A stretch of DNA of 64,000 bases from Alkalihalobacterium alkalinitrilicum (lineage in GTDB: Bacteria > Bacillota > Bacilli > Bacillales > Bacillaceae_F), in assembly GCF_002019605.1 (NCBI RefSeq), contig NZ_KV917368.1:5343885-5407884 (forward strand). Direction: 5' to 3'. Both the position numbers and the translations under genes were made by a program. Positions 31,719 to 46,162 of this stretch are shown here, in pieces (position 1 is the stretch's first letter; each line of letters starts with the position of its first letter). A model generated the notes under the pieces. It saw nothing but the letters and a program-made list of their open reading frames with translations. It was not told the origin of the DNA and searched no databases.

Positions 31719-32375
31719 ATGCGAAAGATGAATGGAGAGGAATTTGATCCATTAGTTCCTTTTTTTGATGCGATGGCCTGTACAAATTGGTTAAGTGACG
31801 TCCACTTTCAATTAAAACAAGCAACAGGAAGTTGGGTTGGAAAAAAAGTGTTAGATGTTGGGTGTGGAACAGGGCGTTTACTCTTAAGAGGGGTTGACGA
31901 AGCTAGTCAAGTCGTTGGTGTCGACTTGTCTGAAGGAATGATTCAAGCAGCCATTGAACTTTACAATGAGAAGAGTAAAAATAATAAAGCGTCTTTTCAA
32001 GTTGGAGATGCGTATCATTTACCTTTTACAGAAAATGAGTTTGACTTAGTTCTTTCAACTTGTGTTTTATTCCTATTACCAGAGCCTGACAAAGGAATGA
32101 AAGAAATGATCCGTGTTGTAAAAGACGGCGGGATGATTGTGACGCTAAATCCTTCTGAGCATATGAACCAACTTGCGGCAGCAGACTATTGTAAACAAAA
32201 CAATATTACACAATTTGAGGAAACAACATTATTAAAGTGGTCTAATATTTCGACATTACGACATCGTTATAATTCAGAAGAGCTTTCAACTTTCTTAAGA
32301 GATTGTGGTGCAAAAGAAATCAACCATTTACCAGTGGTTGGTGACTTGGCTTTGATTACGATATGTAAATTCTAA
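31719..32375 (+). CDS. Class I SAM-dependent methyltransferase
   Basis: A 218-residue soluble methyltransferase of the Methyltransf_11/25 (UbiE-like) type. Motif I KVLDVGCGTGRLLL (about residues 43-56) and the acidic motif II GVDLSEGMIQAA bind S-adenosylmethionine; motif IV region DLVLSTCVLFLLPEP and VVKDGGMIVTLNPS follow. The substrate cannot be inferred; the C-terminal part does not point to a known rRNA, quinone or small-molecule subfamily. The ATG at 31719 follows a strong GGGAGGGGG. It has its own promoter candidate and terminator, so it is not co-transcribed with the pyr operon or with the CARF-HEPN gene, and may or may not belong to the system downstream. Confidence 0.85.
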   Translation: MRKMNGEEFDPLVPFFDAMACTNWLSDVHFQLKQATGSWVGKKVLDVGCGTGRLLLRGVDEASQVVGVDLSEGMIQAAIELYNEKSKNNKASFQVGDAYHLPFTENEFDLVLSTCVLFLLPEPDKGMKEMIRVVKDGGMIVTLNPSEHMNQLAAADYCKQNNITQFEETTLLKWSNISTLRHRYNSEELSTFLRDCGAKEINHLPVVGDLALITICKF

Positions 32376-32376
32376 T

Positions 32377-32412
32377 TAAAAAGCTAGGGATTTCAAATCC
32401 CTAGCTTTTAGA
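32377..32412 (+). terminator. Intrinsic terminator after the methyltransferase
   Basis: TAAAAAGCTAGGGA / TCCCTAGCTTTTA around a 7-nt loop, with further T-rich sequence (GAGTTTTATC). Confidence 0.82.
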
Positions 32413-32480
32413 GTTTTATCACTATCATCATAGGAAGAAATGTAAAGTTTTTTAGTTTAGTATAAAGGGTTTTTACAGAG

Positions 32481-32490
32481 TTTGTCGAAT
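32481..32490 (+). promoter_or_regulatory. Perfect Spo0A box upstream of the CARF-HEPN gene
   Basis: TTTGTCGAAT contains the exact 7-mer TGTCGAA with the consensus T-rich 5' flank. It lies 60-90 nt before the gene; TATATA at 32511-32516 is a possible -10. See the second box at 34101-34110. Confidence 0.4.
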
Positions 32491-32569
32491 ATACAACTTT
32501 AGTTAATAGGTATATATAACTATGAAAACAATGAGATGAAAGACAGCTATGAAGGGAGAATACAAAAAG

Positions 32570-34048
32570 TTGAACGAAAAAGTTAAAATTTATACAGAAA
32601 AATTAAAGACGGATCGTAGTGCTGCAAATCAGTATTATCGTGAGCATTTATTTGAAGAGGTGTCGCAGTCTTTTATAAAAAAAGTTCATGATAAACAAGA
32701 AAAGAACGAGTTTAAACAATACGATTATCTAATTATGTCTGTCGGGTTTAGTATCGGGCCGTTAGTTATGTGGATACGAGCACTACGTCCGAAAGAAGTC
32801 TTCTTTATCTGTTCAGAAGAAACAGAAGACCTTGTAAATGAGATTTGCATGTTATCAAATTTAAAATTTACTCAATGTGATCATACGATTGTTCGCCGTA
32901 CCAATGGGAAGGACGTTTATGAAAAGATTAATGAATATATTGATAAACATCGTATAAAACAACAAGGGCTATTGAACTTAGTAGCGATTGATATTACGGG
33001 TGGGAAGAAAAATATGGTATCGGGATGTAGTCTTGCTGCCAACCATTTAGGAATTGACTTATTATATATCGATAATAATGGCTATTTACCAGGAGTGAGG
33101 AAACAACTTCCTGGAAATGAAGAGCCAATTCTTCTAGAAGACCCGCTCGAAGTCTTTGGGGACCGCGACTTATTTAAAGGTATTACGAAATTTAATAGTG
33201 AAGATTTTGAACAGGCAACAGAAATTTTTAGAGGCATTAAAGAAAGGGTAGTACAAACGAGGAACTATGAAACTTATGAACAACTGTCAATCGGATATAG
33301 CCATTTAGAAGGGATGCGTTTTCATAAAGCTCATTATCACATTTCTCAAGCGATTGAATGGGCAGAAAAACTAGAAATGACAAATATTCCACTTCCTTTA
33401 TTAAAACAACAGTTAATTGCCATTGAGCCACTTATAAAACTTCACGAAATACCTGAGCGTCAAGTCCTTTCAGACAACAGGTTATTTTGGCACTTATTTG
33501 GATATTTATTTAAAATGGCTGACCACTATATGAATGGAAAAAAATACGATATAAGCGCATTGTTAACGTATCGATGTTTAGAATTTATTGTTCAATCTTT
33601 ATTGTTAAAACAATTTGATATTCATCATTCAAATCCACGCTATACACATCTTGATACAAAAAAAATCTTAGAAAAATTTAATGAAATTTCTAATGACGTA
33701 TATCACGACTATCGCCCTTTACATCGACTGCCTAACAAAGTTACGTTAATGACAGGGTTAATTATGCTTCGAGCGTTGGATGAGCCAATGATTCGAAATG
33801 TTAATATTCGATCAATGAATGAATACATAACAGCAAGAAATAAAAGTCGTCTAGTTCATGGATTTGATTTGCTTGATAAGTCTCAAGTAGAGCCGTTTAT
33901 TGGCAGAGTTCGAGGACTTGCGAGTTATATATGGAACCACGAAAAACATGAACTTAGTTTTACAGAAGGGTTTGATCGTTTTGCAAGTCGATATGCTTTT
34001 GTAAATATTGAGTTAAATCGAAACCCTCAGCAGGTGCCTCACCATTGA
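32570..34048 (+). CDS. CARF-HEPN protein (Cas02710/Csm6-like predicted ribonuclease)
   Basis: Resembles the Cas02710 (TIGR02710) branch of CARF proteins. The Rossmann-like N-terminal half has YLIMSVGFSIGPLVMWIRAL (strand 1 and loop), KEVFFICSEET, and the ligand-binding hallmark AIDITGGKKNMVSG with its aspartate near residue 141, then LGIDLLYIDN. In the family this domain binds cyclic oligoadenylate or a related signal. A helical linker follows. The C-terminus has the HEPN RNase motif R-x6-H in ARNKSRLVHGF (R423, H430 from this start). The TTG at 32570 follows AAGGGAGAA (32551-32559) at 10 nt; the ATG at 32549 (506-residue numbering shifts by +7) is an alternative with a poor ribosome site. 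No CRISPR array, Cas10 or other cas gene is in the window, so a signal source must lie elsewhere or differ. The neighbouring operon is 194 nt downstream on the same strand. Confidence 0.8.
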   Translation: MNEKVKIYTEKLKTDRSAANQYYREHLFEEVSQSFIKKVHDKQEKNEFKQYDYLIMSVGFSIGPLVMWIRALRPKEVFFICSEETEDLVNEICMLSNLKFTQCDHTIVRRTNGKDVYEKINEYIDKHRIKQQGLLNLVAIDITGGKKNMVSGCSLAANHLGIDLLYIDNNGYLPGVRKQLPGNEEPILLEDPLEVFGDRDLFKGITKFNSEDFEQATEIFRGIKERVVQTRNYETYEQLSIGYSHLEGMRFHKAHYHISQAIEWAEKLEMTNIPLPLLKQQLIAIEPLIKLHEIPERQVLSDNRLFWHLFGYLFKMADHYMNGKKYDISALLTYRCLEFIVQSLLLKQFDIHHSNPRYTHLDTKKILEKFNEISNDVYHDYRPLHRLPNKVTLMTGLIMLRALDEPMIRNVNIRSMNEYITARNKSRLVHGFDLLDKSQVEPFIGRVRGLASYIWNHEKHELSFTEGFDRFASRYAFVNIELNRNPQQVPHH

Positions 34049-34103
34049 AAACTAGTACTTTATATACATAACCAATCCTTTTTGGAGGAAATTTACTAGT
34101 TTT
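34048..34103 (+). repeat. Perfect 10-bp inverted repeat between CARF-HEPN and vWA genes
   Basis: AAAACTAGTA (34048-34057) and TACTAGTTTT (34094-34103), with 36 nt between. It could be a weak terminator (T run within the right arm) or an operator; its right end overlaps the Spo0A box at 34101-34110. Confidence 0.55.
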
Positions 34104-34110
34104 GTCGAAA
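34101..34110 (+). promoter_or_regulatory. Perfect Spo0A box upstream of the vWA-tubulin operon
   Basis: TTTGTCGAAA matches the extended 0A box consensus. It is about 135 nt before the vWA start and about 75 nt before a weak SigA-like promoter. Confidence 0.4.
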
Positions 34111-34181
34111 TTAGGTATTATTAGTATCTAAGAAAAAACAACTATGAGATCATACTCAATGAAAATGGGTATCTTAGTTGA

Positions 34182-34209
34182 TTGATATTGTACTTTTTCT
34201 AGGTATTTT
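34182..34209 (+). promoter_or_regulatory. Weak SigA-like promoter of the vWA-tubulin operon
   Basis: TTGATA (34182-34187), 16 bp, TATTTT (34204-34209); start predicted about 25 nt before the vWA start codon. Confidence 0.4.
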
Positions 34210-34242
34210 ACATTAGCTAAGTAATTGAGACAGGAGAGAACC

Positions 34243-36468
34243 ATGATACAAATCAATACAAGAGTATTAATGATATGGCTGATATGTTTTATAACCTTAG
34301 TTCCAACCATTTCGTATGGAGAGGAGACTGTCGTAAAGAAAAGGGTAGTTACTCTAATCTATGATGACTCAGGTAGTATGTGGTTTACGTATGACGATCA
34401 AGGAGAACAACTACCGAGTGATAACTGGAAGTTTGCTAACTACTCGTTACAAAGTTTAATCGGACTACTAGGCGAAAATGATCAGCTTAATGTTGTCAGA
34501 ATGACAGACGAACATCAACTTGATACGATTGAAGGTACTTATTCTCAAAGACAACGTGAAATCGAACGAATCTCTAATTGGGATAAACGCGGTTGGACAC
34601 CGTTTGATACCGTAATAACAGCTACTGAACAATTAAAAACAGCTGTTCAACAAGAAGAAGATGCGGAATTTTGGTTTATTATTGTTATGGATGGCGTTTT
34701 CAATGATTTAGACTATTTACAAGTGACGGATGAAAAAGAATTAGCACGAAATTATGAGCTTGCTATTCAAACATTACAAGACTACTCTTTATTTATGCAG
34801 GAAAACAATGTAAAAGCTAATAGCATTTTAGTAACAATTGAGTCGTTTTTAACTCCTGAAGAAGTAGAACAAATGATGATTTTTAAAGATATTTGGGAAG
34901 AGACTACGGGTGGATTGCAGTTAACAGCAGCTAATGAAGAGGAGATTATTGAGCGAATTAATGAAGTTGCTGCATTAATCACGAATCGTGACCCGAATGC
35001 GGAAAAGAGTAATGTTGATTTGAGTCCAAGTTTTGAGGGAAGTAAAGTTTTTCTCGATTCTCCTTATCCACTAAAACGATTAACATTGCTTCAACAGTCC
35101 CCAGGACAACGGTCAAATGTTTCATTATCCGATGTAACGATAAATGATGGAACAACACCTTTACATATTAATGGTCCTTTTCAAATAGAATCTCCCTATG
35201 ATGAATTTGAGCTAAGAGACGATTTGTTCGGTACCATTACTCACATTGGGCATGCTCAAAAAGATGGGGTTAATGAAGAAGGTCAATATATTATTGAGTT
35301 TGACCGTGAAATTCAACTCAATGAACAACAATATTTTCATTTTATTGCAGAACCTGCGATTGATTTCCAAGTGAGTTTGTTGAAACAAGAAGAGGATGGC
35401 ACGTTACATACTGATCAAGAAACGTTTTTCTATGGAGCAGATATGAAAATGGAAGTGGAGCTCATCCGCAGTGGTAATTCAGATAAAATTTCATTTACAA
35501 ATCGAAATGTCAGTGAGGAAGTGGAAGTTACAACTCGGATTGGTGAAGACGTGATCCAATTAATTTGGAATGAGGAAAGGCAAAGCTTTTTAGGTGATTT
35601 CACAATGCCTGATGAATATACTGAAGCCCTAGTTACAACGCTCGTTCATGGGTTTTATCAAGAAACAAAACGTGTATCTCTTCAAGGCGTCGGTGGTAGA
35701 GAGATAGAACTCATTTTATTATCAGAAAACTGGTCAAGTCAACTTGATGTATTAGGGGACGCAACACCGATTCAAATTGAACCACATATTAACGGTCGTC
35801 CAATGACAACTGAAGAGTTATCAGAAGTGTTTTCAACAATAGAAGTGACTAGTGAACAGCGAATACAATTTCGATATGAACAAAATGATCAGTGGATTGA
35901 GATTTATCCAACAATAAACTGGTTACCGATGCTGACCGATGTCGGAACACTAGATGTTAACGTTCAAATAGCTGGGAAGTATTCAGGGGAACAAGCAAGT
36001 TTATCTTTTTCCATCATGATTGAAGATATTTCGTGGTGGAATAAATATGGAATTTATTTAACGTACTTATTGGCCATTATTGCATCTATTATTTGGCTCA
36101 TTGGAATTATAAAAAAGCCGCGTTTTGCAAAAAATGCATCTTACGTTTCGTTAACTACGAAACAAATGTTAAATGGTCGAACATTAGGAGAATATACGAG
36201 TACTGAACAATTTCAGACGAATTTCTTTGGGCGCTGGTTTGTTCCATATATACCAGAAAAAGCAGTGATCCAAGGGCTAACGTTTAAAGCACACCCAAAT
36301 AAAGATCGAATTTTACTGGTAAAATCATCACAATCACCAGAAATGATTGTTCAAGATCGCAGATTAGAAGACGATAGTGGTAGAGATGATATTTTAATTT
36401 TTAGCAACGATACAATTGTAATCGAATACCATCATCAACAAGAAATCTACCAATTTATCAAAGATTAA
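34243..36468 (+). CDS. Membrane-anchored von Willebrand factor A protein (tubulin-like system)
   Basis: 741 residues. An N-terminal signal peptide or anchor (MIQINTRVLMIWLICF..., ending near SYG, about residue 29) is followed at once by a vWA domain whose MIDAS motif is complete (D41-D-S-G-S45, in YDDSGSM), with WTPFDTVITA as a likely threonine ligand and IVMDGVFNDL as the next conserved aspartate. A long beta-rich region (about 270-595) follows, then one membrane span (WWNKYGIYLTYLLAIIASII, from about 598) and a basic C-terminal cytoplasmic domain of about 115 residues. The predicted topology is an external metal-dependent adhesion domain linked to a cytosolic tail. The ATG at 34243 follows CAGGAGAG. 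It is the first gene of a four-gene operon; a vWA protein together with a tubulin-superfamily protein is a known genomic pairing (Makarova and Koonin 2010). The cellular role is unknown. Confidence 0.82.
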   Translation: MIQINTRVLMIWLICFITLVPTISYGEETVVKKRVVTLIYDDSGSMWFTYDDQGEQLPSDNWKFANYSLQSLIGLLGENDQLNVVRMTDEHQLDTIEGTYSQRQREIERISNWDKRGWTPFDTVITATEQLKTAVQQEEDAEFWFIIVMDGVFNDLDYLQVTDEKELARNYELAIQTLQDYSLFMQENNVKANSILVTIESFLTPEEVEQMMIFKDIWEETTGGLQLTAANEEEIIERINEVAALITNRDPNAEKSNVDLSPSFEGSKVFLDSPYPLKRLTLLQQSPGQRSNVSLSDVTINDGTTPLHINGPFQIESPYDEFELRDDLFGTITHIGHAQKDGVNEEGQYIIEFDREIQLNEQQYFHFIAEPAIDFQVSLLKQEEDGTLHTDQETFFYGADMKMEVELIRSGNSDKISFTNRNVSEEVEVTTRIGEDVIQLIWNEERQSFLGDFTMPDEYTEALVTTLVHGFYQETKRVSLQGVGGREIELILLSENWSSQLDVLGDATPIQIEPHINGRPMTTEELSEVFSTIEVTSEQRIQFRYEQNDQWIEIYPTINWLPMLTDVGTLDVNVQIAGKYSGEQASLSFSIMIEDISWWNKYGIYLTYLLAIIASIIWLIGIIKKPRFAKNASYVSLTTKQMLNGRTLGEYTSTEQFQTNFFGRWFVPYIPEKAVIQGLTFKAHPNKDRILLVKSSQSPEMIVQDRRLEDDSGRDDILIFSNDTIVIEYHHQQEIYQFIKD

Positions 36469-36493
36469 ATTGAAATAGTGGAAGGGGATAAAT

Positions 36494-39400
36494 ATGAGTC
36501 ATAATGTACCTACTATATTAGTTGGATTAGGTGGACTAGGAAGTTCTATTGCCAATACGGTTTACGGTCGAATTCCTGTTGAAAGTAGAGGGAATGTCGC
36601 AATCCATGCTTTTGACACGGATGTTAACACGATAAAAAAAATGGAACACATCGCAAATAATATTACGCAAACAAGTACAAGAAAGTCGGTCGGTGAATAT
36701 TTACATCAAAATCCCTCGTTATTAACGTGGTTCCCTGATAATCCTCATTTACGTAAAAAGACGATGACCGAAGGAGCGGGGCAAATTCGATCAGTTTCTC
36801 GTTTAGCTTTTCGTGCGGCAATGGGAGAAGGAAAAATGAATTCTCTCTGGGAAGGAATAGACAGTATTTTTCCAGTGAACAGTGACGCGATGACATACGG
36901 AGTCCGTGTAATTATCATTAGTTCAATGGTAGGTGGAACAGGGTCGGGTATATTCCTACAAGTAGCGATGTACTTGCGTGAAATGCTTGAGCGGAAATTT
37001 GGTCACTCCAGTGTTTTAGTACGTGGAGCTTTTCTATTGCCAGATGTATTAGTTCGGACTAATACGTTAGATGAACGTGAATGGGAATCGGTACGTGCTA
37101 ATGGCTATGCGAGTTTAAAAGAGTTAAATGCGATTACGATGAGTGCTGCTAATCAGTTAGCAAGTGAAACAGATGTAACCATAGATTTAGAATATCGTCC
37201 GAACCAAGTTGACCTTGAAGGTCGAACTACTCATGCAATTACAGAAAGACAATTACCGTTTGACTTTGCCTTTTTATATGATTATGAGAACTTACGTGGA
37301 CAACACTTAAATTCTGTTTCACATTACATTGATCAAATGGCGAGAACTATTTATTTGCAATTGTTTAGCCCTATTTCTGCTAAACATTTTTCGCAAGAAG
37401 ATAATCAAATCTTAGAAATCATCCGTTCAGAAGGACAAGGAAGATATTGTGGAGCAGGGGCGGCAACATTAACTTATCCGTATGAAGATGTTGTGGAATA
37501 CTGTGCATTGCGTTGGGCAGCTTCGGGTCTTGATGATTCTTGGTTAATGTTAGATCGTATGTTTGAAGACGAACGTCACCGTTATGAATTAGACCTTCGT
37601 AGGGGGATTAATCGAGAACGTCCAGAGCGTGGGAAACGTTATATGTGGAATTTAGAACAACTCGTAAACGATGATAAACCTCAACAGTTCTTCAAGCAAG
37701 TGTATCAACAAGTTCGAGAAGAATTAGATCAAGGAAAGCTTGGTGAAGCAAAAGCTACACGTTTTGTTAATGCAGTAGAGGCTAGAGTTGACCAAGTTTT
37801 AGCAGGTGATCCCGAATTACGTGTATTTGAATCCAATTGTCGCGTAAATGAAGGAAATTTAAAATTAAAACAACAAACAAAGCGAGAAATTGGAAAGATT
37901 GAATCAGCCTTGAGTTTTTATAATGAACAAATTAACAAAAAAGTCTATGAGTATCGTACATTTATTACTCACCAAATTGTTGATCAAGATTGTGATGCTC
38001 CAAGTGGTGCGGAAGGTCAAGACTATCGTTTGAATACGTGGTTTATGCAAAAACCAAGTCCACTTCATCCTGTTGCGACGAGGTTTATGCTATATCAAAT
38101 TAGTGATGAAATAAATCAACGGATTCTTAAGCTACGTAAAGATAATGAAACGATGAAGAAGGAGATTGACCAATATAAAGAAGCTTTCAACATTAAAGAC
38201 ACAGAGACGATTGAAAACGCACTACAAAGAGTAGACACTGCCCTAAAGCAAGGTTTATTAGGAAGTCTATTTAAAAACGAATTTAAAGTTTTTATAGACG
38301 AATATGCGCAAAAGTCTTCAAGACATTTAAACACTTTAAACCGTTATAAAAAAGGGTTACTATTAGAACTCGTATATACGTCAGTCGATCAAGCTGTTCA
38401 AAGTATGATTCGTGATTGGGAACGTTTCTTTGAAAACTTAAAAGATACCCGAGATAGTTTGCTAGCTGAGATTAATCAACGTTCAGTTCAATATGAAAAC
38501 AGCACCGATCAAACGAAAGAATTTGTCTTAGCAACAAGAGAGTTTTTAGACCAAACGTGGGAAAGCTTACGTTCATCAGTCGATCAAGGAACATTGCCAG
38601 AAGATATATCTCAACAAATCTATTTAAGTCATTACCGCCAATATTGTAAACGAAATGAACAAACGTATACAAATTATATTGAAGAGATTAAAGTTGAGGA
38701 ATTGTATCGAGAAAATGTATTAGGATATTGTCGTGAAGAGTTGACGTCTAGATACCGTGATCGTCTTGATTTAACGGTCATTCAAGCTTTACGTCGTGAA
38801 GCTGCGTATAAAGGTGAAGAACCAACGAAATACATCGAAAAGCGAATTTCACAACTTGACCATTTGGCGAGTCCGTTTATTCCAAAAATTGAAGAACATC
38901 GTGAACTTAAATTCTGGGGAATTCATTCCGAGAGTTTACAAGACTTAGGAGAAAGCAGTAGTCAAGAAGTGTTTGAAGGAAAAGAAGTGAAAGATGATGC
39001 ATTTTCCAAATACGAAGTCGTTTGTTACCGTGCTCATTATGGGTTAGGAGTGAAAGACTTTGCTAAGTTTTCCTCTGGAGACAGTTCGGACTTACACAAT
39101 CGTCAGCCTGGTGTTTATTACGAAGCTTACCGTAGAAGAATTGATCGGTTAAACCGTGGTGAAGCAACAGTAACACCGCATTTAGATCGTCGTTGGCATT
39201 TACCAGCGTTTATGCCAGATTTAAACCCTCAACAAGTGGAGTTGGATACAGAAAGAAACGATCGCGCTCTACTGTTAGGGTTAATTCATGGCTGGTTAGT
39301 GCTCGTTCGAGATGCTGGGCGTTTCGTTTATCAATATAACGGGTTATCTGGCTCTTCACTCATCTTGAAAAGTGGAGCTGTCGTAACAGAAGAAACATAC

Positions 39401-39853
39401 AATCTTCACCAGGCTTTAAATCATAATCCAGCCATTTATGAAGAAATTTTAGAAAGAGCAGAAGAACAAAAGCTGCATGACAAACGTCGATCAGCTAACA
39501 TTTTAGAGCATGCTTTCATTCAAGGGGCAAAACAAATATCAATACAAAAAGATAGCATTTCTAGTATTCTTGATATTACGCTAGCTTATGAAACTGAAGG
39601 ATTAGGAAATGAAGCACTCCCTGAAAGAGGTACGCGTCTACGTACCCGTTTATTAAATGAAATTGTTAATTATTATAAAGCGATTTATGGTAACCATCGT
39701 GCGTATCAAGCGCAAATCGATGCAGCAGCAATGATCGAAGAACTATGGCTCGATTCAACTTTCCGTCAAATTTCGGATGAAGGCTCATCAGAATATTCCA
39801 ATTGGAAAAATACAATTGATAATACCATTCGTAAGCTCAAGCAGCATTCATAA
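36494..39853 (+). CDS. Large tubulin/FtsZ-superfamily GTPase-like protein (Tubulin_2 type)
   Basis: 1119 residues, about three times the length of FtsZ. The N-terminal about 330 residues look like a tubulin-type GTPase: nucleotide loop T1 VGLGGLGSSIANTVYGRI (G11-G16), IHAFDTDVNTI, and the tubulin signature GGTGSG at residues 147-152 (SSMVGGTGSGIFLQVAMYL). The remaining about 790 residues are mostly helical, with coiled-coil stretches around 440-480 and 540-680 and no recognised domain. It resembles the Pfam Tubulin_2 group ('tubulin-like') rather than FtsZ or TubZ; there is no C-terminal FtsZ peptide. I could not identify a clear T7-loop catalytic acid, so filament formation and GTP hydrolysis are only inferred. 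The gene is 25 nt after the vWA gene and 12 nt before the next, with GGAAGGGG upstream. Confidence 0.85.
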   Translation: MSHNVPTILVGLGGLGSSIANTVYGRIPVESRGNVAIHAFDTDVNTIKKMEHIANNITQTSTRKSVGEYLHQNPSLLTWFPDNPHLRKKTMTEGAGQIRSVSRLAFRAAMGEGKMNSLWEGIDSIFPVNSDAMTYGVRVIIISSMVGGTGSGIFLQVAMYLREMLERKFGHSSVLVRGAFLLPDVLVRTNTLDEREWESVRANGYASLKELNAITMSAANQLASETDVTIDLEYRPNQVDLEGRTTHAITERQLPFDFAFLYDYENLRGQHLNSVSHYIDQMARTIYLQLFSPISAKHFSQEDNQILEIIRSEGQGRYCGAGAATLTYPYEDVVEYCALRWAASGLDDSWLMLDRMFEDERHRYELDLRRGINRERPERGKRYMWNLEQLVNDDKPQQFFKQVYQQVREELDQGKLGEAKATRFVNAVEARVDQVLAGDPELRVFESNCRVNEGNLKLKQQTKREIGKIESALSFYNEQINKKVYEYRTFITHQIVDQDCDAPSGAEGQDYRLNTWFMQKPSPLHPVATRFMLYQISDEINQRILKLRKDNETMKKEIDQYKEAFNIKDTETIENALQRVDTALKQGLLGSLFKNEFKVFIDEYAQKSSRHLNTLNRYKKGLLLELVYTSVDQAVQSMIRDWERFFENLKDTRDSLLAEINQRSVQYENSTDQTKEFVLATREFLDQTWESLRSSVDQGTLPEDISQQIYLSHYRQYCKRNEQTYTNYIEEIKVEELYRENVLGYCREELTSRYRDRLDLTVIQALRREAAYKGEEPTKYIEKRISQLDHLASPFIPKIEEHRELKFWGIHSESLQDLGESSSQEVFEGKEVKDDAFSKYEVVCYRAHYGLGVKDFAKFSSGDSSDLHNRQPGVYYEAYRRRIDRLNRGEATVTPHLDRRWHLPAFMPDLNPQQVELDTERNDRALLLGLIHGWLVLVRDAGRFVYQYNGLSGSSLILKSGAVVTEETYNLHQALNHNPAIYEEILERAEEQKLHDKRRSANILEHAFIQGAKQISIQKDSISSILDITLAYETEGLGNEALPERGTRLRTRLLNEIVNYYKAIYGNHRAYQAQIDAAAMIEELWLDSTFRQISDEGSSEYSNWKNTIDNTIRKLKQHS

Positions 39854-39865
39854 GGATGATGACCA

Positions 39866-42043
39866 ATGCATACTATTGTTATACATTTACAAGATCAGCC
39901 CCAAGATTGGCACCTTATAGAACCTTTTTTCTATAAGGCCCAATCTTCTGGGCTGCTGTCTTTTTTTCAATGTAAACCTAACTTTAATCGAGAAGATGAC
40001 ATCGAAACGGTTTATAACGATATTATTCACCATTTAATTCAGCAAAGAATTTCTCACTGGAATTTTGTCGTTATGATGTACATCCCTTCGCCGATGTATA
40101 GTAACAAGAGGTTAACAGTCCAGCTGAATCAAATTAAAGAAACATGGTTACGAAAATTTACTGATCATGATATGAGTCCGCAAACAGTAACAGCACTAAT
40201 ACTAGATCCGTTAAGACGAGACTCTATGGAAGCACCAGAAGATGGCATAAGTCATAGCTACTGGCAAATCGATAATTTTGGATATTTTCATGATGAGGAA
40301 AAAATTGGAAACCCTCAAAATATGTTTGTAGCTTCAGAACTTACTGAACTAAATGAAATATGGGGGAATCCTATAAATTTACAAGAAGCAGGTCTTCTAG
40401 AAAAACCGAACACGTCTTTTCTAGAATTACTCTTCGATAAACGAACAAGAGTAATTGACAGATTTCAGACACAAATACATGAAAAAAAACGATATGCAGA
40501 AAATCTTGAAATTGAACCTGTACTACATAAAGCAAACGTTTTATCTACTGAGATGTTAACTGAAATTGAAGAAATGTTTGTAAATCAAGTGACGACGATG
40601 TTACAGAAACGGCCTCTTCCAAAAGAAATTGATGCTTTTTCTCCAGGTCAATTACTTGAGAACATTTTAAAAGAAAAAATTGCGCTCCCTTCTGTCATTT
40701 CTGATTTTAGAGTCATTCGTCAATTGTCTTCCATTCATTCCGTTGAACGAAGAACCAAAGCATTATTATCGGTTGCGCTGTTTATCAATGCAATTACAAC
40801 AACGAACGAGTTCATAAAAAAGTTGCCAAAGGGAACAACATACGAATTGCTTACAGTGGTCAATGATGCCGAGTTAGAACAGCTATTGTCTGATTACTCT
40901 GCTAGTCTTCAAACCGCGGCAACAAAAGTAGAAAATCAAATTTTACAACGAAAGTCAATTATGAAACGTAGGTTTGAACCGATAAAAGTAACGCCTCACA
41001 CGGCTAATTTTTTAACGGAACCTGACTTTTCAGTACCTCCTTTTAAGGTACGAAACCAAAAAACGTATTATCAAACATGGGAAGTATTTGTACAAGAAGT
41101 TGAAGAGGAGTTACAACGACGTGAACGCTCGATGTTAAGAGAAGCTGCAAAAGGAGCCGATGTATTATCGGTAATTAAAAGGCAGAAGCCTATTACTCGT
41201 GATGAACAAGTTGATCTTCATGAGTATATGGAGGAGCTTCAGCAGCAAATGGATGTCATTTATTCGGAATTAGAGGAAATTGGACCTGGTGTTTCTGAAC
41301 TAGACTCGAGTTGGGAAACGTATGCAGAAAAGGCAAACTTTGAAATGGATATTCACGTTAAAGCATCCCCAACCAAAAAGCAAGTTGCAGTTGCTTTATC
41401 ATTATCAATGTTGTTCTTACTAGGCCCCCATTTATATGTTCAAAATTGGGAGTTCTTGTTATTTCAAGAAAAATGGTTAGACTTTTTAGTGATTCCATTA
41501 TTGACAGCAATTGCGGTATTGTCGTGTGGTTATATAGTAAAACAAAAAATGGTTAAACCAATTGAAAAAATTATTTCAATTACTAAATCGGAAAAGAAGA
41601 AACTGTATGATGAACAGCTCAGTCGTCAAAGTCAATACAATCAATATTTAAATAAGCTGTACGAATTGTATCGAACGATGCAACAGTATTTTCTTATCAA
41701 AGAAGAATACGACAAAGAGAAGCGTGAGAATTCGCTTTATCGCTACCACTTAAGTGAGATCCAGGATTATTTGGAATCCTGTGAAAATTTAATTCGGAAC
41801 CTTGGATTATTGGTTTATCAAGAAAACCAAAACTCGTATCATCATTTTGATGCAAAGTTTAAAGTGACAAAAAATATTGAAAATAACCCGATCTATTCTC
41901 CTTTTGATTGTGTTTCGTCGACAGTTCAAAAAAATAATTCGTTCGATCTCCATATCGGTCAAAAGAAGTCAACATATAATAGTGGTTATTTAACTGTGCT
42001 TGAACGTTTGAAATTTGAAAAAGATCAGGTGTATAAGTTATGA
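39866..42043 (+). CDS. Coiled-coil protein with two membrane spans (system component, unknown function)
   Basis: I do not recognise the family. 725 residues. The first about 170 residues look like a compact alpha/beta domain (MHTIVIHLQDQPQDW, FVVMMYIPSPMYS, TALILDP). A long helical and coiled-coil part (about 200-480) leads to two membrane spans (about 509-530, VALSLSMLFLLGPHLYV, and 540-560, FLVIPLLTAIAVLSCGYIV), then a further coiled coil (about 570-650) and a short tail. Both ends are predicted cytosolic. It lies 12 nt after the tubulin-like gene and overlaps the next gene by 4 nt (ATGA), so it should be made in step with both. A plausible role is a membrane anchor or adaptor for the tubulin-like protein, by position only. 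Confidence 0.75.
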   Translation: MHTIVIHLQDQPQDWHLIEPFFYKAQSSGLLSFFQCKPNFNREDDIETVYNDIIHHLIQQRISHWNFVVMMYIPSPMYSNKRLTVQLNQIKETWLRKFTDHDMSPQTVTALILDPLRRDSMEAPEDGISHSYWQIDNFGYFHDEEKIGNPQNMFVASELTELNEIWGNPINLQEAGLLEKPNTSFLELLFDKRTRVIDRFQTQIHEKKRYAENLEIEPVLHKANVLSTEMLTEIEEMFVNQVTTMLQKRPLPKEIDAFSPGQLLENILKEKIALPSVISDFRVIRQLSSIHSVERRTKALLSVALFINAITTTNEFIKKLPKGTTYELLTVVNDAELEQLLSDYSASLQTAATKVENQILQRKSIMKRRFEPIKVTPHTANFLTEPDFSVPPFKVRNQKTYYQTWEVFVQEVEEELQRRERSMLREAAKGADVLSVIKRQKPITRDEQVDLHEYMEELQQQMDVIYSELEEIGPGVSELDSSWETYAEKANFEMDIHVKASPTKKQVAVALSLSMLFLLGPHLYVQNWEFLLFQEKWLDFLVIPLLTAIAVLSCGYIVKQKMVKPIEKIISITKSEKKKLYDEQLSRQSQYNQYLNKLYELYRTMQQYFLIKEEYDKEKRENSLYRYHLSEIQDYLESCENLIRNLGLLVYQENQNSYHHFDAKFKVTKNIENNPIYSPFDCVSSTVQKNNSFDLHIGQKKSTYNSGYLTVLERLKFEKDQVYKL

Positions 42044-45000
42044 GCGAATGGAAATTAATTACTTACTCAATAATTGGTTTTATTTTGGTCATTCTTTTTT
42101 TAGCTGTTACTAACTATAAGAAAGATGAACGATATAAACAAATATCGTTCCCATTATTAGCGGTAGGATTTTCGTTCATCGTCATAAAGACTGACTTTAT
42201 AATGAACAATCCGGTCACTGCCTATTTGTTTTCATTGTTTCCTAGTTTAGAAGGGCATACGGTTTTATTGTATAACTTTGTCATACTTTCAGTTTTTGGA
42301 GGCGTAAAGTTAGCTTGGAAGTTTTCAGATAAGACAATAGTTTGGGTGACAGGAAAATTGAAAAAAGGGCACTCCATAGGAGAAAGAAGCTTTTGGGCGA
42401 ACCTATTTGCTAAACTTGTTCAAACCTTACCTGAAGATTGGCGTTTACGTTTTATACGTAAAAAAGGTGGAGATCGAACGGTTGCGATTGCTTATCAACA
42501 AAATATTCGAGATGTCACCTTAAAACCAGAATGGTTTTTTCCTAGAAAACTGTTTTTAGTGATGAGTATCATTCCTCTAATAATGATCGTCTTTTATATC
42601 GTTAGTATTCATGTCCAATTATTTGATTGGTTGATGCTACTTTTACCGACCTACCCTGCGTTATCGATTATTTTATTGTTGGAATGTGCATGGTTTTTAG
42701 GTGGGAAAACACCTGAGTTTCGAAAAGAAACGATTACAGGTAGAGATGTGGAAAGTAAAATTCATACCGAATATGAAGCACTTTATGAAGAGTATCAGGA
42801 GAAATGGCCAGATCGGATATTAGCAAACGATTATATAAAATCCCCTTCAGCGATACAGGAAGGATTGCCTTATCACGTAGAAATGATGCATTCAACTAAC
42901 GAAATTAAACAGCAGTATGATGAAATTTGCCGTAGACTTCGGGCAAAAAAAGTGAATCTATCAGCAAATGATAGTGAAATTTTAGGTCAACTCTTAGAGG
43001 GAAAAGATGTTCTTATTGAAGACCCGGTTTACGGACATATCGAACATATTCTTTTTCCAGCATTATTAAATTTACTCGTGCAAAATAAAAAACTACTTGT
43101 TATTACGAAAAATAGTGAGGCTACCAATGATTGTAAAACGTGGCTAAGAAACGGATTCAAACAATCCAACGGATTTGAATTTTTATGGAAAATTTCATCA
43201 CTAGACGAAGCGCTTGAAGACAATGTGGATACGGATGTGCTCATCGTTTCCGTGGATAAAATTACACAAAACGTTTGCTATGATTTTATTAAAAATGGTA
43301 ACGGTACAACGCAATATGAAGCTGTACTGATTTTAGAATCTGAGCAAATCATTTCGCAATACAATCTTTTGTTACATACTTTTTTTCACCGACTAGAAGA
43401 TATCGTGAAGAAACGTCCACAGTATATTCTGTTATCGCAATGGTATGAAGATTTGGAAACGTCCGCTCGGAAAGTAACAAAGACGACAATGGTTAATAAG
43501 GACGCTAGAAATTCACGAAGTAAAAATTTATTCTATATTATTTGGCAAAAAGAAGGGGAAGGTCGTTTTCAAAAAGCAATATTACCGCGATTTACCCATC
43601 GTACGATTGAACCAGAAGCTGTTTTGGCGGCTTTAGCATTAAAATATCAAATTGAACAAATTCGCTTTATCTACCAAGATAAAAACCCAATTCATGAAAG
43701 TATCGAAGAACTGATCCATAATAAGGATCAGTTGAAAAATATTGATGTACCGACAGTTGCTTTAGATACGATCCGGCATAGGAGTGTATTTCATAAACAG
43801 TACTGGTTAGTACCATACGGTGATTATGCATTCTTAATATTGCGAGATGTTAATTATAATTTAATTGATACACTATCACAGTGGTGGTCGAATGCGAAAA
43901 ATGATTTATTCGTGCAAATTGTTAGTCCGCCTTATTTATTAAGAGATTATTTAGCAGCTACTATTGATTTTTACTTAGATAATAATCGGAAAATATCTCC
44001 AATTGCACCACGCTTAGCACAAACGAAATCAGCAACTGCTTACGCTTTATTAGAAAGAATGTCACAATCCTATTTAACGGAAGAGGAAGTTCACTCGTAC
44101 CTTGTCCGTGTTGATATTAAGAAGGGTTCAATTATTGATGGAGTAAATATGTTATTTCAAGAATGTTTTCAGCGGGGGGAAGATTATCGTCATGCCATTG
44201 AAGTGCGAAAAGCTTCCGTTTTTTACCCAGCCAAAAATAAGTTCCAAGATGAAATTACATATAAAATTACGACGAGAATTAGAGAAAGACTTTTAGAACA
44301 CCGTCATCAGTTTATAGAAATTAAAACGCATGCAGGTAAGGTATTAGGTCATCTATTTGAAGGGCATTTGTATCAAAACTATTTATTCGGGCAACTTCAT
44401 GCTTTTGATGGCCACTTGTATCGTGTTCGCAGTTATGATGAGAAATTAGCTACGTTAAATGTAAATTTCGAAAAAATTGTGGATACGGGCATGTACCGGC
44501 AAAATCGAACGTATCAATTAATGGATTGGAAACATGCTGAGCAAAATCTATATGAAAAATGGTCAACGATGGAGTGGCAATTTGAATTGGCTGAAGCAGA
44601 AGTGAATGTTATGACAGAAGGTTATTACACATTTGATCAACAAATTACGTTTAATGAAAATAAAGCTAAATATCATTTTTTAACAGAAGAACAGCAGTCA
44701 CAAGTAAAAAGAAGGTATTCTCACGGGAAAGTTTTAAAAATAACTTTACGCACATTACAAACTGCTTTTGTTGAAAAAGATAAAGTCGCGTTTACACTTT
44801 CATTCTTATTAAATGAAATGTTTTATACCCTTTATCCAAACACTTATATGTATGTTCAAGTTTCGACGCAATTGAAGGAGACTTTTTTTAATGAAAATAT
44901 CGAAATGAAACAAATTTTTCCTACACTAGAAATGTCTGAGGAAACTAATAATGAAAATGAGCTTGTTTTATATGTGTTTGAAGATTCGCCTTTACAACTC

Positions 45001-45879
45001 GGTCTAATCGAAAGTATTCTCATGAACCGTGCACATATCATTGAAATTCTTGAAGATTATTTAACATGGGTGCTTAAAGAGCCTACAAAAAATGAAAAGT
45101 ACTTAAAATTCGGCAAAGATTCCGTCAATTCGTTATTTGCTATTGAAGAAGCAGCTAAACTTGTGCGGAACTTTTTAGGGGATCATATTTTGAGTAATGT
45201 ACGTCAGGCCTTTGAAAAAAACCATATCGTTCAGAAAGATATAGAAGAAACGGAAATGAAACAATGTGATTTCTGTGCAAGACAATATCCATTAGCTGAA
45301 TTTGAGGAATTAGATGATGGACGTCACCGTTGTCAATATTGTAAACAAAGTGCGATTAATCGTGTGGCTGACCTATCATCCCTTTATGAACAAGTAAGGA
45401 GCTATTTTGTTGAACAATTTGGCGTACAATTAAGAAAAGATATCTATATTGAATTAATGAATGCGAAACAACTTCATGCGCTAAGCGGATTACCATTTAT
45501 TCCGACCAATGACTATGATCCTCGGATCGTCGGTAAAGCAGTCATTGATGATGAGAAAAACATTTCCGTTTATATTGAAAATGGTGCTCCACGCATCCAG
45601 ACATTATTAACGTTTGCCCATGAAATGACCCATGTATGGCAATTTGACTATTTAAATATTCAATACATGACACTTGAAGAACTTGAAGGCTTTGCGAGTT
45701 GGATTGAAGTTCACTTTGCAGAAACGTTAGGTGAAATGGATTACGCGGAAATGCTTCATCAGCAGCTGCTCAATCGAACCGACGAATACGGTCGAGGCTA
45801 TCAAATGATGGTTGAAAGGTTAGCAAACAATCGACTCTTAAAAACGCCATTTGATATTTATATACAACAAGAAGTGTAA
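42040..45879 (+). CDS. Multidomain membrane protein: helicase-like region, LIM-like zinc finger, DA1-like metallopeptidase
   Basis: 1279 residues. The N-terminus has about five hydrophobic segments (about residues 5-95 and 168-222). The middle (about 310-560) is weakly reminiscent of a superfamily 2 helicase: blocks like GKDVLIEDPVYGH, KKLLVITKN, DVLIVSVDKI, AVLILESEQII and YILLSQW appear in motif I-III order, but neither a Walker A lysine nor a DEAD/DEAH box is present, so ATP-driven activity is doubtful. A four-cysteine zinc finger (C1076, C1079, C1098, C1101) precedes a gluzincin-type domain with H1194-E-M-T-H1198 and a likely third ligand E1216 in ELEGFASW. Zinc finger plus HExxH peptidase at a C-terminus resembles the DA1/LIM-peptidase arrangement. 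ATG 42040 overlaps the preceding stop. It is the last gene of the operon; a repeat and a converging gene follow. Confidence 0.75.
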   Translation: MSEWKLITYSIIGFILVILFLAVTNYKKDERYKQISFPLLAVGFSFIVIKTDFIMNNPVTAYLFSLFPSLEGHTVLLYNFVILSVFGGVKLAWKFSDKTIVWVTGKLKKGHSIGERSFWANLFAKLVQTLPEDWRLRFIRKKGGDRTVAIAYQQNIRDVTLKPEWFFPRKLFLVMSIIPLIMIVFYIVSIHVQLFDWLMLLLPTYPALSIILLLECAWFLGGKTPEFRKETITGRDVESKIHTEYEALYEEYQEKWPDRILANDYIKSPSAIQEGLPYHVEMMHSTNEIKQQYDEICRRLRAKKVNLSANDSEILGQLLEGKDVLIEDPVYGHIEHILFPALLNLLVQNKKLLVITKNSEATNDCKTWLRNGFKQSNGFEFLWKISSLDEALEDNVDTDVLIVSVDKITQNVCYDFIKNGNGTTQYEAVLILESEQIISQYNLLLHTFFHRLEDIVKKRPQYILLSQWYEDLETSARKVTKTTMVNKDARNSRSKNLFYIIWQKEGEGRFQKAILPRFTHRTIEPEAVLAALALKYQIEQIRFIYQDKNPIHESIEELIHNKDQLKNIDVPTVALDTIRHRSVFHKQYWLVPYGDYAFLILRDVNYNLIDTLSQWWSNAKNDLFVQIVSPPYLLRDYLAATIDFYLDNNRKISPIAPRLAQTKSATAYALLERMSQSYLTEEEVHSYLVRVDIKKGSIIDGVNMLFQECFQRGEDYRHAIEVRKASVFYPAKNKFQDEITYKITTRIRERLLEHRHQFIEIKTHAGKVLGHLFEGHLYQNYLFGQLHAFDGHLYRVRSYDEKLATLNVNFEKIVDTGMYRQNRTYQLMDWKHAEQNLYEKWSTMEWQFELAEAEVNVMTEGYYTFDQQITFNENKAKYHFLTEEQQSQVKRRYSHGKVLKITLRTLQTAFVEKDKVAFTLSFLLNEMFYTLYPNTYMYVQVSTQLKETFFNENIEMKQIFPTLEMSEETNNENELVLYVFEDSPLQLGLIESILMNRAHIIEILEDYLTWVLKEPTKNEKYLKFGKDSVNSLFAIEEAAKLVRNFLGDHILSNVRQAFEKNHIVQKDIEETEMKQCDFCARQYPLAEFEELDDGRHRCQYCKQSAINRVADLSSLYEQVRSYFVEQFGVQLRKDIYIELMNAKQLHALSGLPFIPTNDYDPRIVGKAVIDDEKNISVYIENGAPRIQTLLTFAHEMTHVWQFDYLNIQYMTLEELEGFASWIEVHFAETLGEMDYAEMLHQQLLNRTDEYGRGYQMMVERLANNRLLKTPFDIYIQQEV

Positions 45880-46030
45880 CGTAGGATTAATTGACTAGCG
45901 AAGCTTAATTTATTAGAGCTAAGAACTCGACCCAAGGCTTGGAGGATAGAAAAGGTGAAGAGGAAATAAAGTTCCTATTACAGGTAAGTTCCCTTACGCC
46001 TATGGCAACATCTGTGTGATCCGTATCTTG

Positions 46031-46094
46031 TGGGCTGAACTAACAATCAGTGGGGGATAAAGGAAAGCTCTCAATGAATGAAGTTTCCACTTAA
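46031..46094 (+). repeat. Intergenic repeat copy 1 (degenerate hairpin element)
   Basis: Contains ATCAGTGGGGG..AAGGAAA..CAATGAATGAAGTTTCCACTT. It is a degenerate relative of the element at 51097-51162 and of hairpin repeats I know from Bacillus intergenic regions; the stem here is decayed. It fills most of the 283-bp gap between the island operon and rqcH; 45880-46030 has no other recognised feature. Confidence 0.55.
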
Positions 46095-46110
46095 TTAATG
46101 TTTAAAAGAG

Positions 46111-46147
46111 AAAGGACAGTCCAAATAAAAATGGGACTGTCCTTTTA
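46111..46147. terminator. Bidirectional terminator between island operon and rqcH
   Basis: AAAGGACAGTCC and GGACTGTCCTTT form a perfect 12-bp stem with an 11-nt loop; T-rich sequence flanks it on both strands. It serves the convergent 1279-residue gene and rqcH. Confidence 0.85.
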
Positions 46148-46162
46148 ATCATGATTACCTTA

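Follow-up and report, generated by a model that had tools for sequence, protein, structure and literature searches.

A rare four-gene vWA–tubulin–peptidase operon of Bacillales and its recurrent, dispensable CARF–HEPN partner

The window analysed here is a stretch of 64,000 nucleotides from Alkalihalobacterium alkalinitrilicum (contig NZ_KV917368.1, positions 5,343,885 to 5,407,884). Between a SAM methyltransferase gene (31719–32375, + strand) and rqcH it carries an island of about 13.8 kb (32376–46162), which is made up of five genes, with no additional ORF of at least 80 aa. All five are on the + strand: a CARF–HEPN RNase gene of Csx1/Csm6 kin (32549–34048, 499 aa), a vWA gene (34243–36468), a Tubulin_2 gene of the FtsZl1 kind (36494–39853, 1119 aa), a gene for a coiled-coil protein with two membrane spans (39866–42043, 725 aa) and a gene for a membrane pseudo-helicase/peptidase (42040–45879, 1279 aa). 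A check of the ORFs bears out the original prediction as to the order and coordinates of these genes, and also as to the intergenic distances (194, 25, 12 and −4 nt), provided that the vWA gene starts at the ATG at 34243; its ORF itself opens at a TTG (34225). No Rfam element is found between 31300 and 46300 at an E-value of 0.5.

The original prediction began the unit at 31719, with the methyltransferase gene. In three genomes of the same genus, pyrE, the methyltransferase gene and rqcH are present and none of the five genes is; the methyltransferase gene is 106 (G001), 58 (G002) and 376 bp (G003) from rqcH in these genomes, as against 13.8 kb in the window. Because it sits beside rqcH in these island-free congeners, the methyltransferase gene is a resident flanking gene and is ruled out as a component of the system, and the unit spans about 32376–46162. 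All five genes are thus in one insert relative to the three congeners. A single gain at this site is simpler than three losses, and a gain in one step would look the same as a gain in several. Repeats were rejected as island borders: there are just short two-copy repeats, and no pair joins both ends. The repeat of ∼100 bp at the right end (45999–46098, + strand) is not a boundary either, as it is a genome-wide interspersed element, with at least 39 further matches in the same genome (40 of 86 candidates scored).

The identity of the CARF–HEPN protein is firm. It matches TIGR02710, the Csm6 HEPN family and the PADLOC profile CARF1--CARF_HEPN (1.2e-111), its best solved relatives are Csm6 proteins (E-value 1.1e-19), and it has both a CARF motif (DITGGKK) and a HEPN motif (RNKSRLVH). 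The vWA protein has no Pfam match of its own, and its assignment is supported through its relatives: in an alignment of 19 vWA proteins, VWA_2 matches seven and VWA matches three (best 5.9e-10), and the window protein has a MIDAS motif (DxSxS, as DDSGSM). Hydropathy gives this protein an N-terminal signal or anchor, a transmembrane segment near residues 604–622 and a cytoplasmic tail, which would place the vWA domain outside the membrane. The 1119-aa protein is a tubulin-like GTPase, as predicted, since it matches Tubulin_2 (PF13809) at 9.1e-63 and has the T4 loop GGTGSG, invariant in the four tubulin proteins aligned; we read Tubulin_2 as equivalent to FtsZl1 from the description of the latter in the available text of PMC2875224.

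The coiled-coil protein has two transmembrane spans by hydropathy. Its predicted structure suggests that it may have a degenerate tubulin fold, with the GTP motif absent; a sequence relation between this protein and tubulin was not found, and its model has no significant match in BFVD. All transmembrane segments reported here come from a crude hydropathy scan, which also marked a segment in the tubulin protein and another in the CARF protein; we take these two as false calls. PADLOC defence profiles give no match for the vWA, coiled-coil or peptidase proteins, and the PADLOC match of the tubulin protein (E-value 0.05) is at chance level.

The 1279-aa protein has five predicted transmembrane spans (42055–42687, + strand; residues 6–216, from hydropathy only), and its charge pattern puts the C-terminal part inside. 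At the C-terminus is a zinc finger (CDFC...CQYC) followed by a metallopeptidase motif (HEMTH...E) (45265–45876, + strand; residues 1076–1279). A zinc CxxC...CxxC, the HExxH and the downstream E are found in all 16 aligned proteins of this family, so the membrane, zinc-finger and HExxH parts of the original prediction stand; what it missed is a region resembling a helicase, which takes up most of the protein. The structure model matches MrfA (E-value 6.8e-24), with residues 281–1042 (42880–45165, + strand) aligned to 6zns. An SF2 RecA1–RecA2 core is present, and MrfA is the best match over a longer region; pTM of the whole model is 0.41. As for the OB–CON–DUF1998 part of this family, the MrfA alignment extends to residue 1042, and the 18 Pfam families that match the 16 proteins at an E-value of 10 do not include DUF1998. 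Walker A (GK[ST]) and DExD/H motifs are absent from the aligned motif blocks of the 16 proteins, and the four stray GK[ST] triplets in these proteins lie elsewhere, outside those blocks. The protein thus models as a MrfA/YprA-type helicase that lacks the ATPase motifs and is apparently dead, fused to a HExxH peptidase. As for the peptidase family, DUF6782 matches all 16 proteins (best 7.5e-5; the window protein, at 14.5 bits, is below the cut-off of 27), and a DA1-like profile matches two of the 16 (best 0.018). The HExxH, MIDAS, tubulin T4, CARF and HEPN motifs are all intact in the window proteins.

Scanning genome contigs with the tubulin alignment gave 24 loci, to which the loci from the genome search were added; duplicate records of one genome (e.g. 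L010 and G149) were counted once. Among the 17 distinct loci with the 1279-aa gene (window included), every one carries the vWA, tubulin and coiled-coil genes as well, in identical order. This count sets aside a remnant of 79 residues in one genome (G253), which stands without the other three genes. The operon genes are therefore not found mostly apart; the four form a strictly linked unit, and a rare one, the 1279-aa gene being found in nine of the 397 genomes of the order (window included; eight full-length copies and the G253 remnant). In Ornithinibacillus halophilus (L019/L054) the operon is decaying, with three of the four genes broken: the vWA gene is truncated, the coiled-coil and peptidase genes are split, and the tubulin frame is open. 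Four loci of Ectobacillus and Bacillus sp. 165 have the vWA and tubulin genes, with the other two absent within the flanks available, and in one of seven Bacteroidetes-type loci the tubulin gene is accompanied by a vWA relative.

The neighbours of the Bacillales loci (about 30 proteins identified) vary from clade to clade and are mostly metabolic, regulatory or transport proteins, and no defence islands are seen. Ten of the neighbours were compared with PADLOC profiles; a subtilase and an ABC ATPase gave matches to defence profiles, which we take as generic. In four loci of the Neobacillus type (L014:6722–7549; also L015, L016 and L029), a gene directly upstream of the operon encodes a protein with a C-terminal cysteine cluster and a weak PD-(D/E)XK match; it may be an effector, but the family match is just 0.0017, and the gene is confined to this one clade.

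The CARF–HEPN gene adjoins the operon in four of the 17 loci, from four genera. It is upstream of the operon in the window and downstream in the other three: in Sutcliffiella horikoshii, Evansella tamaricis and Alteribacter natronophilus, a relative of the CARF–HEPN gene (55, 51 and 46% identical to that of the window, respectively) is directly downstream of the 1279-aa gene and on the same strand. The adjacency is therefore not peculiar to the window's strain; it is recurrent and not obligate. All four linked genes keep the CARF and HEPN motifs, with a D for G in the CARF motif of Sutcliffiella. The CARF alignment has no match in the genomes of the other 13 operons, and one genome (G095) has the CARF gene without the operon. 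Of the co-occurrence proposed in the original prediction, the part that concerns the four operon genes holds, as they travel together; the part that concerns the CARF–HEPN gene holds in four of 17 loci, and to speak of one five-part system is too strong. On these counts the operon is the core and the CARF–HEPN gene a recurrent, dispensable partner.

At a threshold of 1e-10, the CARF alignment matches five of the 397 genomes of the order, four strongly (the window's genome G000, G149, G095 and G209) and one weakly (G010, whose matching gene is part of a type III-B locus that includes Cas10/Cmr2). The search at this threshold undercounts distant CARF relatives, as a gene in G253 was missed although hmmsearch scored it 3e-16. 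In a sample of the class (398 genomes, threshold 1e-50) the window's genome alone matched. A full-length 1279-aa gene and a strong CARF match are found together in only two genomes of the order sample, and the two genes are neighbours in both. In the incomplete genome G209 (62%), the CARF gene is found on two short contigs (4–5 kb), with no operon gene beside it.

In the tubulin tree, the CARF-linked operons form one clade together with the operon of G005, which has no CARF match and is nearest by path to the window's operon; the support of this clade (89/94) is below the mark of 95. As these operons form one clade, the simplest reading is a single gain of the CARF gene, with later relocation and loss. 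Resolution in the CARF tree is too poor for a test of co-inheritance.

The G253 remnant lies 198 nt downstream of a different CARF–HEPN gene (L058:7666–9366 and to 10584), which follows a 310-aa gene similar to a gene of the G010 type III-B CRISPR locus. This CARF–HEPN gene belongs to another subtype, with 47% identity to the CARF gene of the G010 locus, and is weak as support for the link between CARF gene and operon.

The two parts are separable, as can be seen from two genomes: G095, of the Sutcliffiella group, has the CARF gene alone at the site, and G149 has CARF gene plus operon at the corresponding site. G095 lacks the operon block, with a single breakpoint 3 bp ahead of the CARF start codon, a pattern that insertion and deletion would leave alike. 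Ten genomes of the genus of G149 were searched with the G095 site and the stretch was inspected in four of them, which have neither the CARF gene nor the operon at the site and no match to the CARF gene or the 1279-aa gene elsewhere either. In the family of G149 (18 genomes) the CARF gene is found in two genomes and the 1279-aa gene in one. Two repeat families of ∼100–140 bp are seen at L050 (7267–7408 and 8585–8689), both of them abundant in a number of genomes of the genus, and the second family adjoins the CARF island. The CARF island is accompanied, in two genomes of a single genus, by a gene coding for a small hydrophobic protein and by another, short gene (L050:10261–10734 plus a small gene upstream; L010:7067–7525). 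The short gene resembles, we presume, a VbhA-type antitoxin.

An origin from type III CRISPR is unsupported for the window's CARF gene, as Cas10 was not recognised in its genome by the palm and Csm1 models (Cmr2 had no model of its own). The Csm1 model gave no match there, and the Cas10 palm model gave one match below the cut-off (21 bits, in a frame of 329 aa). There is no palm match in G149, G095 or G209, and no Csm1 match in G149 or G095. In Evansella (G397) a palm match is over the cut-off (29 bits, 361-aa frame), with a Csm1 match of 22 bits. We take short palm matches as GGDEF proteins, because the palm model also matches in Escherichia coli. With no Cas10 recognised, a cyclic-oligoadenylate pathway is doubtful in the window's genome. 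Carriage by phages or plasmids was rejected too: phages give no match for the CARF protein, neither the CARF nor the peptidase protein has a relative among IMG/VR viral contigs (searched with two peptide patterns each), the CARF proteins on two plasmids are just 23–25% identical, and the plasmid tubulin matches are distant.

We prefer the reading, which we rate at an even chance, that the locus is an accessory four-gene membrane machine, most likely for defence, and that one clade has gained a CARF–HEPN RNase as an optional effector of it. A defence function of the cassette is plausible from sequence and genomic context, given the CARF–HEPN partner, the helicase fold from a defence-rich family, the plasmid sets with brxL described below, the patchy islands and the mention, in the accessible part of PMC10910872, of vWA-related systems that include tubulin proteins and lie near CRISPR loci. 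Against it are the lack of a defence-island setting in the checked Bacillales loci, the minority of operons with a CARF gene and the empty two-pattern searches of viral contigs. We infer functions in membrane sensing, filament formation, proteolysis and RNA cleavage. The vWA protein would be a receptor that responds to an event beyond the membrane (entry of a phage or damage to the envelope), and the GTP-bound tubulin would polymerise under the membrane together with the coiled-coil protein anchored in it. The dead helicase module of YprA type may be a docking sensor for nucleic acid or protein that gates the adjoining zinc peptidase, and the first response would be cleavage of a target. Where present, the CARF–HEPN RNase might provide a second, growth-arresting response, triggered by a nucleotide ligand that does not come from Cas10. 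The cassette is naturally present or absent among close relatives in Bacillaceae and offers a testable HExxH active site and, in some, an attached RNase.

A less probable reading is that the operon is a machine for membrane remodelling or envelope stress with no immune role, carried on an accessory island that it shares with an unrelated defence gene, the CARF–HEPN gene. Membrane remodelling is what has been predicted for FtsZl1/vWA operons (PMC2875224, from the available text), and the 13 of 17 operons without CARF–HEPN, the CARF gene without operon in G095 and the metabolic or regulatory neighbours all fit this reading. It does not explain well why the CARF gene adjoins the operon in four genera, on one side or the other, and why the window has all five genes in its insert, nor why the helicase fold belongs to a defence-rich family and three Thermaceae plasmids group vWA–tubulin genes with brxL. 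That the whole cassette is for defence, with CARF–HEPN where present as an integral, regulated effector activated by a signal made by the operon, is unlikely: four of the five operons of one tubulin clade keep the adjacency and all four linked genes keep the CARF and HEPN motifs (the Sutcliffiella substitution apart), but the five proteins include no recognised nucleotide cyclase, no Cas10 is recognised in the window's genome, G095 has a CARF gene without operon and G005 an operon without CARF match.

A bolder form of the preferred reading, the accessory membrane machine with an optional RNase, would make it a Gram-positive transmembrane immune machine, in which an extracellular vWA receptor acts on a heteropolymer of active tubulin and membrane-anchored pseudo-tubulin, and this in turn on a dead YprA helicase that gates the metallopeptidase fused to it, with CARF–HEPN as an exchangeable effector under a nucleotide signal from outside CRISPR; we offer this only as a speculation with a low chance of being right.

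As for known systems, the locus shares features with several of them. Among Csx1/Csm6 effectors of type III CRISPR, the window protein has the same CARF and HEPN motifs; unlike theirs, its gene adjoins a tubulin operon, and no Cas10 is recognised in the window's genome, G149 or G095. The YprA/MrfA helicase family is, according to the available text of a preprint (PMC12458937), central to DISARM, Dpd and Druantia, and is also found in ARMADA. The 1279-aa protein shares the predicted fold of this family (residues 281–1042) but has no ATPase motifs, has five transmembrane spans in addition and carries a peptidase instead of a nuclease. In that text of the preprint there is no mention of tubulin, vWA, peptidase or transmembrane. 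In the window protein the YprA helicase fold would be put to uncommon use, bound to the membrane, with the ATPase motifs gone and a protease fused.

Sets of vWA, tubulin, hypothetical and brxL genes are found on three of the five plasmids inspected, from Meiothermus taiwanensis, Allomeiothermus silvanus and Thermus oshimai (L094:10051–18128, L095:10111–19203 and L096:10149–18108). They share with the window operon the two-gene vWA–tubulin start and a third gene of similar size (677–686 aa), which has no detectable sequence relation to the coiled-coil protein; unlike the window operon, they have brxL in place of the pseudo-helicase/peptidase, and an IS element intervenes in Allomeiothermus. The Meiothermus set lies downstream of HmaB- and HmaC-type genes. 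Helicase and methyltransferase genes are near two of the sets, and exonuclease and RecQ-family helicase genes near the third. Two Azospirillum plasmids with a tubulin gene have no brxL; on Azospirillum sp. TSA2s plasmid p2 (L098:11665–22772), the tubulin-like gene is among three caspase-family genes and OmpA-family genes.

GAP1-N2 GTPase-centric conflict systems that include tubulin and vWA were described by Kaur et al. in 2020 (PMC7159879). In the available text, their Firmicute versions resemble the window's arrangement in having two genes in which tubulin domains are joined to coiled coils, and an extracellular vWA on transmembrane helices, and differ in that the window has a peptidase with a dead helicase instead; Pfam matches to GAP1, TRAFAC GTPase or HSP70 are absent among the five window proteins (GAP1 had no model of its own).

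The FtsZl1/vWA operons, for which Makarova and Koonin predicted a role in membrane remodelling in 2010 (PMC2875224), share with the window, as far as the accessible text goes, a tubulin-superfamily gene beside a gene for a vWA protein that has a metal-binding motif, partners associated with the membrane and a patchy spread. The window has Tubulin_2 with its T4 loop, and an operon partner with vWA and MIDAS. Unlike these operons, the window's five genes include no protein kinase, P-loop GTPase or OmpA, and the window operon has a pseudo-helicase/peptidase and, in some loci, CARF–HEPN, neither of which is met in the accessible FtsZl1 description. The locus can be seen as a compact version of the predicted FtsZl1 membrane machine. 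In a full-text search of mostly open papers, we did not find vWA, tubulin, pseudo-helicase–peptidase and CARF–HEPN described together. The vWA–FtsZl1 operons (2010) and the tubulin/vWA conflict systems (2020) are already known, and their combination with the other parts may be undescribed; the locus itself is real, recurrent and partly new.
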